Positions 31,445 through 39,846 of a stretch of DNA of 46,222 bases are shown in pieces. The DNA is from Flavobacteriales bacterium (GTDB lineage Bacteria > Bacteroidota > Bacteroidia > Flavobacteriales_D > Crocinitomicaceae): positions 1-46,222 of the forward strand of contig CANJNE010000010.1 in the NCBI GenBank assembly GCA_947475275.1, in the 5' to 3' direction. The notes beneath the pieces were generated by a model. That model was given only the letters and a program-made list of their open reading frames with translations. It was not told where the DNA came from and ran no database searches. Within the stretch, counting starts at the first letter, position 1. Each line of letters opens with the position of its first letter. The position numbers and the translations under genes are program-made.

Positions 31445-31707
31445 AAAATATTTTCAAAAGCTACAGTTTTTTTATGAATTTTTATTACCCTTAAAAGTTT
31501 GTTAACACAGAGGATTGCAGTAAATGAAAGATTCTTTGGGCTTAGACTCTTTTTTTGTAGACTTGGTTGAACCTCGCAATCATTTCACATGCAATGATTA
31601 CTCACGGTGGGTCCTGAAAAGGAGATAATATTCTATTATTTTCAAAGCTCTTGGAAATTTTTACAAAAGGGTGCATCTAAACATTATGTTTCACAATTGG
31701 ATCAGCA

Positions 31708-31735
31708 TTGTTAAACACTATTATGTTTACATTTG
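31708..31735 (+). promoter_or_regulatory. Bacteroidetes-type promoter (TTG-N17-TACATTTG) of ispG
   Basis: TTG at 31708-31710 and TACATTTG at 31728-31735, 20 nt before ATG 31755. Confidence 0.6.
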
Positions 31736-31754
31736 TTATAAATGTATTTCCTCT

Positions 31755-33710
31755 ATGCAAGACAAACAAAACGACAACTTTTTACCCTATACAACTGATC
31801 CGCTTCAAAGGCTGCGCTTTCAAACTAGAGTTGTAAAAATTGGTGACATCAAAATGGGAGGAGAAAACCCTATAGTGGTGCAGTCAATGACAACCACAGA
31901 CACTATGAACACAGAGGAAACTATTCAACAGTGCATTAGGATGGTAAATGCTGGTTGTGAACTGATAAGAATTACGGCGCCAAGCATTAAAGAAGCTGAA
32001 AATTTACAACACATAAAAAATAAGTTAGAAGATTTATATTGTCAGGTTCCGCTTGTTGCTGATATTCATTTTACTCCAAACGCTGCTGAAGTAGCTTCAA
32101 AAATTGTCGAGAAGGTTCGTGTAAACCCAGGAAATTACGCTGACAAGAAAAAATTCGAGAACATTGAATACAATGATGAAAGTTATTCGGCCGAACTAAA
32201 ACGCATTGAAGAAAAATTCACACCATTGGTTATATTGTGTAAAGAACATAAAACAGCAATGCGCATTGGAACCAACCACGGCTCATTATCAGATAGAATT
32301 CTAAGCAGGTATGGCGACACTCCAGAGGGGATGGTTGAGTCCGCAATGGAATTCATACAAATATGTGAAAAACTGAACTTTCACGACCTCGTAATTTCGA
32401 TGAAGGCCAGTAATACATTGGTAATGGTTCAGGCATACAGACTTTTGGTTGCAGAAATGCTCAAGAGCGGGATGAATTATCCTTTACATTTAGGCGTCAC
32501 TGAAGCCGGTGATGGTGAAGATGGAAGAATTAAATCTGCTGTAGGTATTGGTGCATTACTCGAAGATGGTATCGGAGACACTATAAGGGTTTCTTTAACG
32601 GAAGACCCAGAATTTGAAATACCTGTTGCACGCAAACTATTATCAAAATTCAATACAGTAAATCCAGAATATCAAATACCGCAGACTTCTATAAAACTTC
32701 CATATAATCCATATCAATATAAAAAAAGAGAAAGTAAAGATTTAGAAAATATTGGTGGGAAAAATGTTCCTGTTGTAATCTCCGACTTATCACATAGAGA
32801 TAACATAACGCAAGCAAACTTTTATGGAGCAGGATACACTTATTCACCTTCCCTAGACAAGTGGAACATTCAAGATCAAGCGGTTGATTACATATATATC
32901 GGTCATAAAACTATTGATTTTGAGATTCCAGGTACCCTAAGAATCTTATGTGAAATCGAAAACTGGAAAGATAATTATACAAATAAAGAAGGGTATTTTC
33001 CCCTAATAAGAACACAAATAGAACTTGAAAAACTAAATGAAAATCAAACTGTATTCTTAGAAATACATCCAGGGCAAGAATATAATTGGAAAGCCCTAAA
33101 AATCAGAACAAATATCATTCTAGTTTTGGTTTCGAATTACTCTAATACAACACATATATTTCGCAATTTTTACACGACTTTAACGGAAAACAATATCTCT
33201 TCCCCTGTTATTTTAAAAAGAACGTTAAACGAACATGATGATGAAAGCTATCAATTACACGTAGCCTCAGAATTGGGTTCGTTATTCATAGATGGATTTG
33301 GTGATGGGATTTGGCTTGATGGACCTCATTCACTGAAACATTTAAACTCAACATCCTTCGGTATTCTTCAAGCAACGAGAACAAGAATATCCAAAACAGA
33401 ATATATATCATGTCCGTCATGTGGAAGAACCTTATTTGATTTACAGGAAACAACGGCCAAAATAAGAAAAGTTACCTCGCATTTAAAAGGCATCAAAATA
33501 GGTATAATGGGCTGTATTGTTAATGGCCCAGGAGAAATGGCTGATGCCGATTACGGTTACGTTGGCTCTGGACCAGGCAAAATCAATCTCTATAAAGAAA
33601 AGGATGTGGTTAAAAGAAATATACCTGAAAACGAGGCTGTTACGGCCTTAGTCGACCTTATAAAAGAAAATAAAGACTGGGTAGAACCAATAATTTCTGA
33701 AGAACAATAG
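31755..33710 (+). CDS. ispG: (E)-4-hydroxy-3-methylbut-2-enyl-diphosphate synthase, large (insertion-containing) form
   Basis: GGENPIVVQSMTTTDTMNTEETI, GTNHGSLSDRIL, CPSCGRTLFDLQ, IGIMGCIVNGPGEMADADYGYVG. Start set to ATG 31755 (in frame with the 31671 ORF start) because a promoter-like TTG-N17-TACATTTG lies at 31708-31735. Confidence 0.95.
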   Translation: MQDKQNDNFLPYTTDPLQRLRFQTRVVKIGDIKMGGENPIVVQSMTTTDTMNTEETIQQCIRMVNAGCELIRITAPSIKEAENLQHIKNKLEDLYCQVPLVADIHFTPNAAEVASKIVEKVRVNPGNYADKKKFENIEYNDESYSAELKRIEEKFTPLVILCKEHKTAMRIGTNHGSLSDRILSRYGDTPEGMVESAMEFIQICEKLNFHDLVISMKASNTLVMVQAYRLLVAEMLKSGMNYPLHLGVTEAGDGEDGRIKSAVGIGALLEDGIGDTIRVSLTEDPEFEIPVARKLLSKFNTVNPEYQIPQTSIKLPYNPYQYKKRESKDLENIGGKNVPVVISDLSHRDNITQANFYGAGYTYSPSLDKWNIQDQAVDYIYIGHKTIDFEIPGTLRILCEIENWKDNYTNKEGYFPLIRTQIELEKLNENQTVFLEIHPGQEYNWKALKIRTNIILVLVSNYSNTTHIFRNFYTTLTENNISSPVILKRTLNEHDDESYQLHVASELGSLFIDGFGDGIWLDGPHSLKHLNSTSFGILQATRTRISKTEYISCPSCGRTLFDLQETTAKIRKVTSHLKGIKIGIMGCIVNGPGEMADADYGYVGSGPGKINLYKEKDVVKRNIPENEAVTALVDLIKENKDWVEPIISEEQ

Positions 33711-33724
33711 TTTCACGTGAAACA
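33709..33724. promoter_or_regulatory. parS: parS-like centromere site (15/16 to TGTTTCACGTGAAACA)
   Basis: AGTTTCACGTGAAACA, a perfect 14-bp GTTTCACGTGAAAC palindrome between convergent ispG and mnmG. Confidence 0.88.
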
Positions 33725-33733
33725 CAACTAACT

Positions 33734-35605
33734 TTACCTGCCAATATGAATTAACAATACTGATATATCACTTGGTGAAACACCACTAATCCGCGAAGCT
33801 TGTCCAATTGAACGAGGTCTTAGTTTAGAAAGTTTTTCCTTTGCCTCAAGACTCAAACTATTCATAGAAGGATAATCAATATTGTCCGGTAATAAAACAT
33901 CCTCTAGCCGCTTTGTTTTTTCAGCAAGATCTTGCTCTCTTTCTATATAACCCTGATATTTTAAAAGAATTTCAACTTGCTCTAAAATATCTTTTTCATC
34001 TGGAAGGATCAAACCTAATGTATGAAAGAGTTGATCATCCATTTCTAGAATGTCTCCTACACTCAACTGAGGCCTTGCAACCAGCGAGGCAGCCTTAACC
34101 TGTTGAGTAATCGGGGAAGAACCCAATTCCTTTAAACGAAGGTTGGCTTTGTCTGGTGAAACACCAAAGGTTCGAAAAGAATAAAGTGAACTATCTATTT
34201 TTGTCTTTTTACTCTCTATTAAACCTATTTGAGTTTCATCCAAGAGACCGAGCTTATGTCCAAAATATGATAACCGCGTGTCTGCATTGTCTTGTCTTAA
34301 TAGAATTCTAAATTCAGCCCGGCTAGTAAACATTCGATAAGGCTCTTCAGTACCTTTTGTAATTAAATCATCAATAAGAACACCTATATAAGCCTGATCA
34401 CGAGACAGAATAAAAGATTCCTCTCCTTTAACATACAAATTAGCATTAATACCTGCCATAAGGCCCTGGCAGGCCGCTTCTTCATAACCTGTGGTTCCAT
34501 TAATTTGACCCGCAAAGAAAAGTCCACGAATTAACTTGGTTTCAAGAGAATGCTTCAATTGTGTTGGTGGAAAATAATCATACTCTATAGCATAACCTGG
34601 TCTAAACATTTTTACCGATTCCAAACCTGGGATTGTTTTCAATGCCTTCATTTGAATTTCCTCCGGCAAGGAAGAGCTGAATCCATTCAAATAAATTTCC
34701 ACAGTTTTCCAACCTTCTGGCTCCACAAATAATTGATGCCTATCTCTATCCGCAAAACGATTTATTTTATCCTCGATACTCGGACAATACCTCGGGCCTG
34801 TGCTTTTAATTGATCCGTTAAACATTGGTGAACGATCAAAACCCGTCCTTAAAACATCATGTGTTTTAGTATTGGTATAAGTAATGTAACAAGGTAATTG
34901 CTTATTTAATACTGTTCGTTTTCTAAAACTAAAAATAGAATGATGTTCATCACCATTCTGAACTTCCATTTTAGAATAATCTATTGACCTTCCATCTAAT
35001 CTTGGGGGCGTACCCGTTTTCATTCGGCCCGCTTCAAAACCATGGTTCACCAAGTCCTCTGTAATACCTATTGCGGCTTTTTCTGCCATTCGACCACCAC
35101 CAAATTGTTTTTCACCTAAATGAATCAAACCATTTAAAAAGGTTCCGTTGGTCAATACAACGGCATTTGAATAAATTGAGAAACCCATGGAAGTCCTAAC
35201 GCCCTTTACATAACCTTCTTCAACGATTAAACCCACACACATGTCTTGCCAAAAATCCACATTCCGATTAGACTCAAGTGACAACCTCCATAATTCAGAA
35301 AACAACATTCTATCATTCTGTGTGCGGGGGGACCACATGGCCGGGCCTTTTGAACGATTCAACATACGAAATTGCAAGGCGCTCGAATCGCTGATGACAC
35401 CCGACTCACCGCCTAAAGCATCAATTTCACGAATTATCTGACCTTTCGCAACGCCTCCCATTGCAGGATTACAACTCATTTGAGCTATAGTACCCATATT
35501 CATTGTCAGCAACAAGACCTTACTGCCCATTTTCGCGGCCGCATTCGCGGCCTCACAACCAGCATGACCTGCGCCAACAACAACAACATCATAATGACCT
35601 AGCAT
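33734..35605 (-). CDS. mnmG: tRNA uridine-5-carboxymethylaminomethyl(34) synthesis enzyme MnmG
   Basis: [83 protein letters not shown] at 35605 (MLGHYDVV) preferred to the TTG at 35626. Confidence 0.97.
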
Positions 35606-35635
35606 CACCTCGTATTTTAATATCAAATGAATATA

Positions 35636-36058
35636 TTATGTTTCACGTGAAACAAATAAAGCCAAATATTTATCCTCCATTGTTCTCATTAGCATTTTCT
35701 CCTCATCAGTCTTATCTACAAAACCACACAAATGTAGAACTGCATGAACCATAACCCTTAACAGCTCTTGGAAATACATTACACCCAAAACACTTGCATT
35801 ATCCTTTACCCGATCAACTGATATAAATACATCAGATAGAATTATATCACGGCTATAATCAAACGTTATTACATCGGTATAATAATCATGGTTCAAGTAT
35901 TTATTATTAACATCAAGTAGATAGTCATCAGAACAAAACACAAAATTAACACAATCCAGGTTTTTATTCTGGTCTGAAATTACACCATTAATCCATGATT
36001 CAACATCACGATAATTGATATCATAACCTATAACAGATACTTCATTAAAAGTTATCAA
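35636..36058 (-). CDS. ybeY: endoribonuclease YbeY (rRNA maturation)
   Basis: NHDYYTDVITFDY, LLRVMVHAVLHLCGFVDKTDEEKMLM; the last codons overlap a parS palindrome. Confidence 0.93.
   Translation of the reverse strand: MITFNEVSVIGYDINYRDVESWINGVISDQNKNLDCVNFVFCSDDYLLDVNNKYLNHDYYTDVITFDYSRDIILSDVFISVDRVKDNASVLGVMYFQELLRVMVHAVLHLCGFVDKTDEEKMLMRTMEDKYLALFVSRET
35639..35654. promoter_or_regulatory. parS: parS centromere site (16/16 to TGTTTCACGTGAAACA)
   Basis: TGTTTCACGTGAAACA at the ybeY 3' end, directly before its stop codon; encodes VSRET of YbeY. Confidence 0.92.
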
Positions 36059-36060
36059 AC

Positions 36061-36474
36061 CTACTTCTTGAAGTAAATATAAACATGACTACCGCCGTGT
36101 GAATAAACGACCTCATCCGCCAGTGACCTCATTAAGAAAACACCACGCCCATTCTCTTTAAGCATGTTCTCTGGAGAAGTTGGATCAGGTAAATTATCAT
36201 AATCGAATCCAACACCTTGATCTTTAATTGCATAGCAAAACTCATCTTTATTATCACCAACCAAAACAGAGACAATCAAACTAGTTGACTTCTTGTTTCC
36301 GTGTTCAATCGCATTGTTAACGGCCTCAGTAACAGCTATTAGGATGTTACCATAAGCATCCTCATTAATTCCTAAATCACCGCACGAATGCGTTATTAAT
36401 GACTCTACCTTATTCATTTCATCATAACTAGAAGCAATTGAAACCTCTCTTATAACAACAAAACCATCTTTCAT
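36061..36474 (-). CDS. RsbW-like ATP-binding protein (anti-sigma regulatory/serine kinase fold)
   Basis: AVTEAVNNAIEHGNK (N-box), IKDQGVGFDYDNLPDP (G1), NGRGVFLMRSLADEV (G2). Confidence 0.9.
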   Translation of the reverse strand: MKDGFVVIREVSIASSYDEMNKVESLITHSCGDLGINEDAYGNILIAVTEAVNNAIEHGNKKSTSLIVSVLVGDNKDEFCYAIKDQGVGFDYDNLPDPTSPENMLKENGRGVFLMRSLADEVVYSHGGSHVYIYFKK

Positions 36475-36495: not shown

Positions 36496-39400
36496 TTAAA
36501 AACTGTTGTTGAAGTACTCATTAGCTTTATCCTTATAATACTTTTTATAGACAGGATCTATGGTTTTTAATAATTCTATTTGTTTTAATTTCTCTCGGTT
36601 ATACTCATCGAATCGAATTTTGTTTCCATCCTGAACACTTTTTCCCGTAGTTGATTCACGTTTCTCTTCAAAACCCCTTTCTAATATAGCTTTTTCACTT
36701 TCTAATAACCTGGTCAAAATATTCTTTTGACGCGTTAACATATCACTATTAAAAGACTTATTAATCAAATCAGACTCTTGCTTTTCCAAGTCCTTTATAA
36801 GATCATTCAAGGCATTTCCCTGACCCTGTCCTTCTTTATTTAACTGTTGCTTTAACTCTTCCAAACGCTGCCTAATTGCCGTCTGCTCGGCTGCCATCTT
36901 AGCTATTTGCTCATTACTTAAACCCAGCATATTCTGACCATCCTTCCCTTGGCCCTTACCGTCTCCAGGACTCTTGCCTTCTTTACCTTGACCTTTTTGC
37001 ATTTGCTCTAGTTGTTTTTGCAACATTTGTTTCATATCACCGGGTGTCATAGAAGAGCCCGGTTTAGGCTTACCTTTTCCACCAGGATTGTTACAACTAC
37101 CTGAACCCTGTTGAATACTTTGCATTTGTTGTTGCATGCTCTGCAAGCTTTCATTAAGCAATAAAGCAAGGTTGTTATAAGAGGTCATAACAAGCTGCTG
37201 ATGCATTTGCAATTCCCTTTTCATGTGCTCGTCAATATCTTCTACGCTCAAAGATAAATTGTCTTCAATACTTGCCAATTCAGCATCTATGAACGTTGCT
37301 ATTTTCGGTTGGCGCTTAGCAAGTGCCAACAAACTGTCTTTTACAATTTTCGTATCATCAATTATCTTTCGTTGCCTACGTCCATATTTACGATAAGACG
37401 GATCACTATCACTAATACGATTAAAAGAACTAATTAAATCCTCCTGATCAAAACTTAATGTCATCAAACTCTCTAAAATCATTCTTAAGGCGTCTATATC
37501 TTCTTCTTGCTGTTGCTGATTAGCCGCTTGTTGGGCAGCGTCCATTTCTTCAGCCATTTTTTTCATGCCATCAGCGGCAGATTTCTGATTTTGTGCAGCC
37601 TTACTTGCTTTTTGATTCGATAGGTTGTCTTCTGCATTATTAAGATCGTCCGAAACATCCTGTTCATTCTCGTCCATATTATCCAATTCCATTGGCTGCT
37701 CCAATTCTTGATTCAATTCTTTTAGTTTTTCTATATCCTCTTTTAGCTCATCAAACTTTTCATTTATCGCTTTTTGTTCTTCCGTTGCGCTCTCATTTGA
37801 TATACTTTTATTCTCAACCTGTTCCTTTAAGGCCTCCTGCTCTTCTGACAATTCTTTAAGTTCGCTTTCTATATCATCAATCTTTTCATTTACCTGAAGA
37901 CGCTTTAACATCTCTAAACTTCTATCCAATTGCTTTTTTAAATCTTCGGAAGACTGATCAATATCATCTAGTTTTTCTTGCATTTGCTCCCTATTATTTT
38001 CTCTCATCAACTTTTCCAACTCATCAAGTAAATTTTTTAACTCATCGTCCATTAATTCTTGTAAAAGCTTATCTATTAGCTCTTGTTTTTCAAGAATCGT
38101 AGGATCTATTTCAGAAAGTTGATTTTTCTCATCTTTACTCAACTGCATTTGATTCTGAAGTTGCTCAAGATTATTTATTATCTGCTGTTGTTCTTCCTTT
38201 AATTGGTTGACTTTGTTCAATTTATTCCAATCCGTAGATTTTGAATTTAAAGCTTCATTTTTCAGTTTTTCCACTTTCTTTTGAAAGTCATCTGTTTTTT
38301 GCAACAACTCGGACAAATCCGCTTTAACTTGTTCTTGCTCATCTTCTCTTTTATCATTCAATTCTTGAAGGGTAGGTAGTTGGTATGTAAAAATTTGGCT
38401 TTTTGTGGACTTAGCACCATTTACACCATCATTATCAGACACTATAAAATAATACTCTATTTTATCGTTTATTTTTACATTTTCCCTTCTGAAATCTACA
38501 GCAAAATCAAAAGGTAAATCAAAACCCGAAACAGACCTAACGGACATCCTGTTATTCTTTTTAGAACCATCTTTAGATATTATAGTATAAACAAAAGTTA
38601 AGTTTGATAAACCATAATCATCACTAACCCTACCATTAAAAAACCTCAATCCATCACCAGCAGAATCACAAGTTTCTTGAACAAAAACATCAGGATAAGC
38701 ATCTTTAATAACATCAATATAAACCTTTGAGCTATCCATTTTATTCTGGTACTTATTATGCATATTTAATTTTATAGATAACGGTTCCTTTATCCTTTTT
38801 ACAATTCTAAAACCATCATTGGCGTATCTCGTTTGCTTACCATTTAAAGATACATCTGTAAACTTCGTGTTCTTTGTTGAAACGTTCCACTCTATTTCTG
38901 TACCCTCAGGTAGTGTCAAATCACCAGCATTCTGAATAATTTCATCAGTCTTACCTAAGTACTTTGGATAATGAATTTTTGCTTCAAACTTTCCTATTAC
39001 ACTCTTACCAAAAACGGTTAAACCAAATTTAGGGCTAGTCACTTCATTCGCTTCAAAATAAAAATTACCGGATTGTTTTGGCTTTTTAATAATTCCCTTA
39101 AAATAATTTCGGGAGACTTTTTCCATAAGTACTTTACCATTATCGGATACCATATAAACAAAATCGGGAAGTTCATCGCCCTTTATTTGGACTTCGACAG
39201 GTAAATCGTTCCCCTCTTCGAGAACCAAATTTTTCGTTTTAAGGACATAGCTAAATGGGGGTGGGTCTTTGTATTCCTTATTGTAATTTAAAACGCGCTC
39301 ACCTCCCCTAAGAAACAATGAAGGGGCTGCAATACCTATAGCAATGAATATAACAAAAAGGGGTATCAAATATTTTGCATACCTTCTATTCGCTCCATAA

Positions 39401-39846
39401 TCCACTGCGGTTGAAAAAGAAAATTTGCTAAGTTTTTCAGAACGCTGGGAAACACTTGCTCTTAACAATTCAACATTTCCTTCGTTCATTTCTAAATTTT
39501 CATGCAGCTGAAGCGTGTTCTTCAATCTATCTGAAATTTCAGGGAAAAAAGACCCTATTATTTCTGCAGCTTGGTGTCTATTAATTCTCCTTCCAAAAGA
39601 ATAAAGCTTTAACAGTGGTCTTAAAAAAAAGTAGAGCAAAATAACAGTGTTCAGACCTATAAATGAGAAAAATAAAAACGCCCTAAACCATGAAGCAAAA
39701 CGCCCATAAAATTCTACAGATGTTGCTACCAAAAAGGAAGTTAACAATACTACTATGAATAGTAGAACACCTTTTAACATTTGATTTTTATAATATTTGC
39801 GTATGAACGCATCTATTTGTTCTAATAATCTTTCAAAAGAATTCAT
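36496..39846 (-). CDS. DUF4175-type membrane protein with long Q/E/K-rich coiled coil
   Basis: 1116 aa; N-terminal TM helices, long coiled-coil segment (DELKNLLDELEKLMRENNREQMQEKLDDIDQS...), Gly/Pro/Gln-rich stretch; next to ybeY/RsbW-like ATPase. Confidence 0.75.
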   Translation of the reverse strand: MNSFERLLEQIDAFIRKYYKNQMLKGVLLFIVVLLTSFLVATSVEFYGRFASWFRAFLFFSFIGLNTVILLYFFLRPLLKLYSFGRRINRHQAAEIIGSFFPEISDRLKNTLQLHENLEMNEGNVELLRASVSQRSEKLSKFSFSTAVDYGANRRYAKYLIPLFVIFIAIGIAAPSLFLRGGERVLNYNKEYKDPPPFSYVLKTKNLVLEEGNDLPVEVQIKGDELPDFVYMVSDNGKVLMEKVSRNYFKGIIKKPKQSGNFYFEANEVTSPKFGLTVFGKSVIGKFEAKIHYPKYLGKTDEIIQNAGDLTLPEGTEIEWNVSTKNTKFTDVSLNGKQTRYANDGFRIVKRIKEPLSIKLNMHNKYQNKMDSSKVYIDVIKDAYPDVFVQETCDSAGDGLRFFNGRVSDDYGLSNLTFVYTIISKDGSKKNNRMSVRSVSGFDLPFDFAVDFRRENVKINDKIEYYFIVSDNDGVNGAKSTKSQIFTYQLPTLQELNDKREDEQEQVKADLSELLQKTDDFQKKVEKLKNEALNSKSTDWNKLNKVNQLKEEQQQIINNLEQLQNQMQLSKDEKNQLSEIDPTILEKQELIDKLLQELMDDELKNLLDELEKLMRENNREQMQEKLDDIDQSSEDLKKQLDRSLEMLKRLQVNEKIDDIESELKELSEEQEALKEQVENKSISNESATEEQKAINEKFDELKEDIEKLKELNQELEQPMELDNMDENEQDVSDDLNNAEDNLSNQKASKAAQNQKSAADGMKKMAEEMDAAQQAANQQQQEEDIDALRMILESLMTLSFDQEDLISSFNRISDSDPSYRKYGRRQRKIIDDTKIVKDSLLALAKRQPKIATFIDAELASIEDNLSLSVEDIDEHMKRELQMHQQLVMTSYNNLALLLNESLQSMQQQMQSIQQGSGSCNNPGGKGKPKPGSSMTPGDMKQMLQKQLEQMQKGQGKEGKSPGDGKGQGKDGQNMLGLSNEQIAKMAAEQTAIRQRLEELKQQLNKEGQGQGNALNDLIKDLEKQESDLINKSFNSDMLTRQKNILTRLLESEKAILERGFEEKRESTTGKSVQDGNKIRFDEYNREKLKQIELLKTIDPVYKKYYKDKANEYFNNSF

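Follow-up and report, generated by a model that had tools for sequence, protein, structure and literature searches.

A conserved parS site at the ybeY-mnmG junction of Crocinitomicaceae is read in different frames by the end of ybeY

In other bacteria a centromere is found next to gidA (mnmG) near the replication origin, in the gidA-gidB-parA-parB origin cluster. Livny et al. reportedly published a survey of parS sites in 2007. For Pseudomonas aeruginosa, nine of ten predicted parS sites were placed in coding sequences (PMC4368675). Here we describe a parS site at the junction of ybeY and mnmG in a contig of 46,222 nucleotides from a Flavobacteriales bacterium of the family Crocinitomicaceae; the whole contig is called the window below (Table 1). 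Very probably the site is a chromosomal parS centromere that is bound by ParB and located near the origin at ybeY-mnmG, where it is the DNA that is selected and the variable end of ybeY that has been fitted over it.

Table 1. Features of the ybeY-mnmG region and their positions in the window.
Feature	Position	Strand	Remarks
ispG (gcpE)	31671..33710	plus	Pfam PF04551; convergent with mnmG; stop overlaps second parS
Second parS, AGTTTCACGTGAAACA	33709..33724		one mismatch; 9 nt past mnmG stop
mnmG (gidA)	33734..35626	minus	longest ORF; Pfam PF01134 and others
ybeY stop codon TAA	35636..35638	minus	directly 3' of parS
ybeY (endoribonuclease YbeY)	35636..36058	minus	Pfam PF02130, E 2e-21; TTG start as listed, provisional
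parS, exact TGTTTCACGTGAAACA	35639..35654		encodes VSRET of minus-strand YbeY; kept in relatives
Cumulative G-C minimum in window	40071		genes diverge here

An earlier note on this DNA had placed a perfect 16-bp parS directly before the ybeY stop codon, and the site indeed matches the consensus without a single mismatch. On the minus strand ybeY ends with TTT GTT TCA CGT GAA ACA TAA, giving the YbeY C-terminus ...ALFVSRET*, and the span 35636-35656 comprises the stop codon, parS and two more bases. The Pfam match of YbeY stops at residue 133, and VSRET occupies residues 136-140, beyond the domain. On the plus strand, MFHVKQ... begins a 38-aa open frame starting at 35638; the earlier note was right about this reading but not in calling it spurious, since FHVK is a real YbeY tail in other lineages, a consequence of the identical sequence that a palindrome has on its two strands. 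According to pattern searches, from which all whole-genome site statistics are taken, the 2.68-Mb draft genome has only two parS sites with at most one mismatch, namely this exact one and the second parS, which begins with the AG of the ispG stop codon TAG. Allowing up to three mismatches, 7 of 100 shuffles of the window reached its two matches, and because this count alone is only mildly unusual, the significance of the site is drawn from the exact match and from the comparison with relatives. The true start of mnmG is probably the ATG at 35605, because homologues align from about residue 7-8. Directly upstream of ybeY, a small HATPase_c_2 protein (Pfam), similar to anti-sigma-factor kinases, is encoded at 36061-36474 on the minus strand.

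YbeY was sought in 150 Crocinitomicaceae genomes and was present in 142, representing 24 of 24 sampled genera, and 141 loci could be analysed. All 141 have a parS-like site no more than 200 nt from the ybeY stop; it falls at -45 to +15 nt of the stop in 136, the other five having one within 200 nt, and overlaps the ybeY ORF or stop in 98, although genome counts of this kind overstate independence because the sequences are related. Site-density profiles of the 141 loci show that around ybeY parS is nearly absent elsewhere, the exception being the end of mnmG some 1.9 kb off, and five decoy palindromes scored in the same way as parS gave no match within 100 nt of the ybeY stop in the 141 relatives. 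The profiles and the decoys rule out a chance occurrence of parS at the ybeY stop. Exact matches to the consensus occur in 21 family genomes, and every such match is at ybeY-mnmG. The information content, calculated from 116 dereplicated relatives anchored on the core, is 2 bits inside the site (lower at the Y, R and end positions) vs. 0.05-0.8 bits outside, where the anchoring on CACGTG within 85 nt causes a mild ascertainment of the core only, and the limits of conservation coincide with the 16-bp parS. An extra exact parS is located inside the conserved part of ybeY, 133-148 nt before the stop, in 16 family loci (L150, L184, L188, L190, L193, L200, L201, L203, L204, L210, L211, L212, L216, L217, L219 and L221), where it encodes NVSRETE just before the HGVLHLCG motif and where relatives read NVSF..EL; three more genomes (L013, L186 and L213) have a site at the same internal position in the FHVE frame.

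The YbeY tail proved as free to vary as had been supposed, reading VSRET, VPRET, FHVKH, FHVEH, GFT, ISFT or something unrelated among relatives. The V[SP]RET register is found in 49 of the 141 family genomes and the FHV[KE] register in 16. In 22 genomes parS itself supplies the stop, as a TGA inside the site in the frame TTC ACG TGA (e.g. TTC ACG TGA AAC), while in 11 the last bases of the ybeY stop codon are the first one or two bases of parS. The site starts at most 15 nt after the ybeY stop in 38 of the 141 genomes, and five of the 141 have none at -45 to +15. The stop codon is found after, inside, overlapping the first bases of, or before parS. The earlier note had offered two alternatives, a variable tail taken over by parS or a stop codon that moved through the site; tail variation and stop movement are both seen, and therefore both alternatives are true. 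On a tree of MnmG and of YbeY without its tail, the register classes cluster, and at least 29 register changes are required, a number that is approximate because the quick tree has many weak inner branches. For every class but the rarest reading, the well-supported branches alone force several register changes.

For the codon comparison the V[SP]R[EG]T and FHV motifs were located at the protein level only. In the V[SP]R[EG]T tails (n = 49), Val is encoded by GTT in 49/49 vs. 55% elsewhere in ybeY, Ser or Pro by TCA or CCA in 49/49 vs. 22-24%, Arg by CGT in 49/49 vs. 37%, and Glu by GAA in 48/48 vs. 69%. Thr is ACA in 42 (29% elsewhere), and the third base of this codon is the outer base of parS, where conservation is weak. 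Given the residues, the probability of the four codons is roughly 0.03 per sequence. The FHV frame uses CAC for His and GTG for Val in 16/16 each (31% and 19% elsewhere, respectively); the codon of the same residue, Val, thus depends on the frame, being GTT for V[SP]R[EG]T and GTG for FHV. By comparison, 39 other conserved ybeY codon columns from the same 49 genes all vary synonymously, the catalytic-motif histidines included. A testable pattern in related species had been anticipated, with the synonymous positions of VSRET as the check, and such a pattern exists: the wobble positions of V-S/P-R-E are invariant in the 49 genomes, without free variation among relatives. The commonest change inside the motif, Ser to Pro (14/49), alters the protein and stays within TGTTYCACGTGRAACA, the base being one that the parS degeneracy permits.

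Outside the family, parS was found at one mnmG end in 71 of 80 named Bacteroidota mnmG loci; ybeY is directly upstream of mnmG in 62 of those loci, and 48 of the 62 have parS at the ybeY stop. Two further genome sets from the phylum have parS at mnmG in 26/29 and 32/40 cases, respectively, the latter set having been chosen for family diversity and ybeY being rarely adjacent to mnmG there. MFHVEQ* is a common YbeY tail in Flavobacteriaceae, and in Chryseobacterium parS lies between ybeY and mnmG without touching ybeY. Of the 102 Crocinitomicaceae loci with a complete mnmG, 61 also have parS at the mnmG stop, and in 36 of these 61 it shares two bases with the stop codon; mnmG is therefore often bracketed by parS. 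Judged from these arrangements, parS was probably associated with mnmG first, and its overlap with ybeY would follow from adjacency.

The G-C minimum of the window is about 4.4 kb from parS and is consistent with a replication origin. An ORF of 1116 amino acids without a Pfam match (36496-39846, minus strand) adjoins this inferred origin. In the complete relative G059 the skew turns from minus to plus in the interval 1.75-1.78 Mb, with mnmG adjoining at 1.746 Mb, and in the complete relative G004, where the skew is noisy away from mnmG, it does so between 2.74 and 2.76 Mb, with mnmG at 2.72 Mb. By GC skew, the parS sites appear origin-proximal. In four complete relatives (G059, G070, G096 and G004), the dnaA gene lies about 1.6-1.9 Mb from mnmG, far from the inferred origin, and parB about 1.9-2.3 Mb from mnmG; in G059 parB is where the skew returns to minus, and therefore near the terminus. 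A position of parAB near parS and the origin, which is usual for ParABS but not defining, is not seen in these four complete relatives. The window's own genome has a single ParB_N match, with an adjacent ParA-like ORF containing KGGVGKTT, on a contig (C66, L227) other than that of parS. By the residue criteria that separate parS recognition by ParB from recognition of the Noc site (PMC7383237), this protein has the R173 and G201 of ParB instead of the Noc-type pair; it keeps Q162, K171, S172, N178 and R204, while position 170 is Ala and position 184 is Lys.

We propose that ParB binds the site as a chromosomal parS centromere, which may serve in segregation and would be anchored near the origin, at the ybeY-mnmG junction in Crocinitomicaceae and, for most of the Bacteroidota sampled, at mnmG. 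Selection would act on the DNA site, and the variable ybeY end, in itself presumably neutral, would be fitted over parS. Frameshifts and stop changes would slide the reading frame across the fixed site, so that one frame yields VSRET or VPRET, another FHVK or FHVE, and the remaining one the TGA stop from parS itself. As it is very probably the DNA site and not the protein that is held fixed, the entering frame sets the last residues of YbeY and sometimes its stop codon. We also consider it likely that Bacteroidota share an ancient centromere that is tied to mnmG close to the origin and uncoupled from parAB; the gene ends around it would have been refitted again and again, and in some species it supplies the ybeY stop.

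Could the VSRET tail instead be conserved for the function of the YbeY protein, the palindrome being incidental? No single tail is commoner in the family than VSRET or VPRET, as counted above. However, other relatives keep the DNA and read it as FHVK, as GFT* or not at all, the synonymous sites are invariant, yet Ser may be replaced by Pro, and the tail is outside the Pfam domain. Protein constraint on VSRET, which we hold to be exceedingly improbable, is ruled out by the other reading frames together with the frozen wobble bases. Conservation by shared ancestry alone, without selection on the site, would agree with the clustering of registers on the tree, but it is contradicted by the scrambled synonymous positions elsewhere in the same genes, even at invariant residues of the catalytic motif, and the bases flanking parS carry little information; the likelihood of this explanation is practically negligible.

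It is also very improbable that the palindrome serves the ybeY-mnmG operon in some other way, as a regulatory element or a terminator, and is not a ParB site. Such an element would account for a perfect inverted repeat that is always near gene ends, yet the palindrome fits the 16-bp parS consensus with variation confined to its degenerate positions, and it recurs beyond the end of mnmG, at the ispG stop and within ybeY. Moreover, it is present at mnmG even without an adjacent ybeY, and parA and parB are present in the genome. The site is a clear case of one fixed DNA element having every frame read by the same gene in different species, and selection on DNA and on protein therefore becomes directly separable. 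If Bacteroidota do share an ancient centromere of this kind, nature has provided a test of the extent to which a binding site can shape a protein sequence. The site further marks the centromere and the probable origin in a group with a distant dnaA, and prompts one to ask how ParABS can operate when the genes encoding it lie across the chromosome.

In a search of the literature on parS with ybeY, mnmG/gidA or Bacteroidetes, the arrangement was not found described, which is weak evidence of novelty as the search covered open-access papers only. As far as the papers searched go, what appears to be undescribed is the fixed position, a gene frame and stop that slide over a conserved centromere, and a parAB that lies apart from it. 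With the parS of chromosomal ParABS systems, the site has in common the 16-bp palindrome, the few copies, the place beside the inferred origin and a ParB with the residues for parS recognition; unlike them, it has a constant place at ybeY-mnmG, where each of the three frames reads it and the stop codon moves, and parAB is about 2 Mb away from the sites in complete relatives. The likeness to the gidA-gidB-parA-parB cluster is that of a centromere beside gidA (mnmG) near the origin, but in these Bacteroidota the sites stay with mnmG and the parAB genes do not. A parS inside a gene is already known from Pseudomonas aeruginosa (PMC4368675), whereas here the site is on the stop codon of the gene, at one syntenic position across the family, and therefore a single site can be compared across reading frames.
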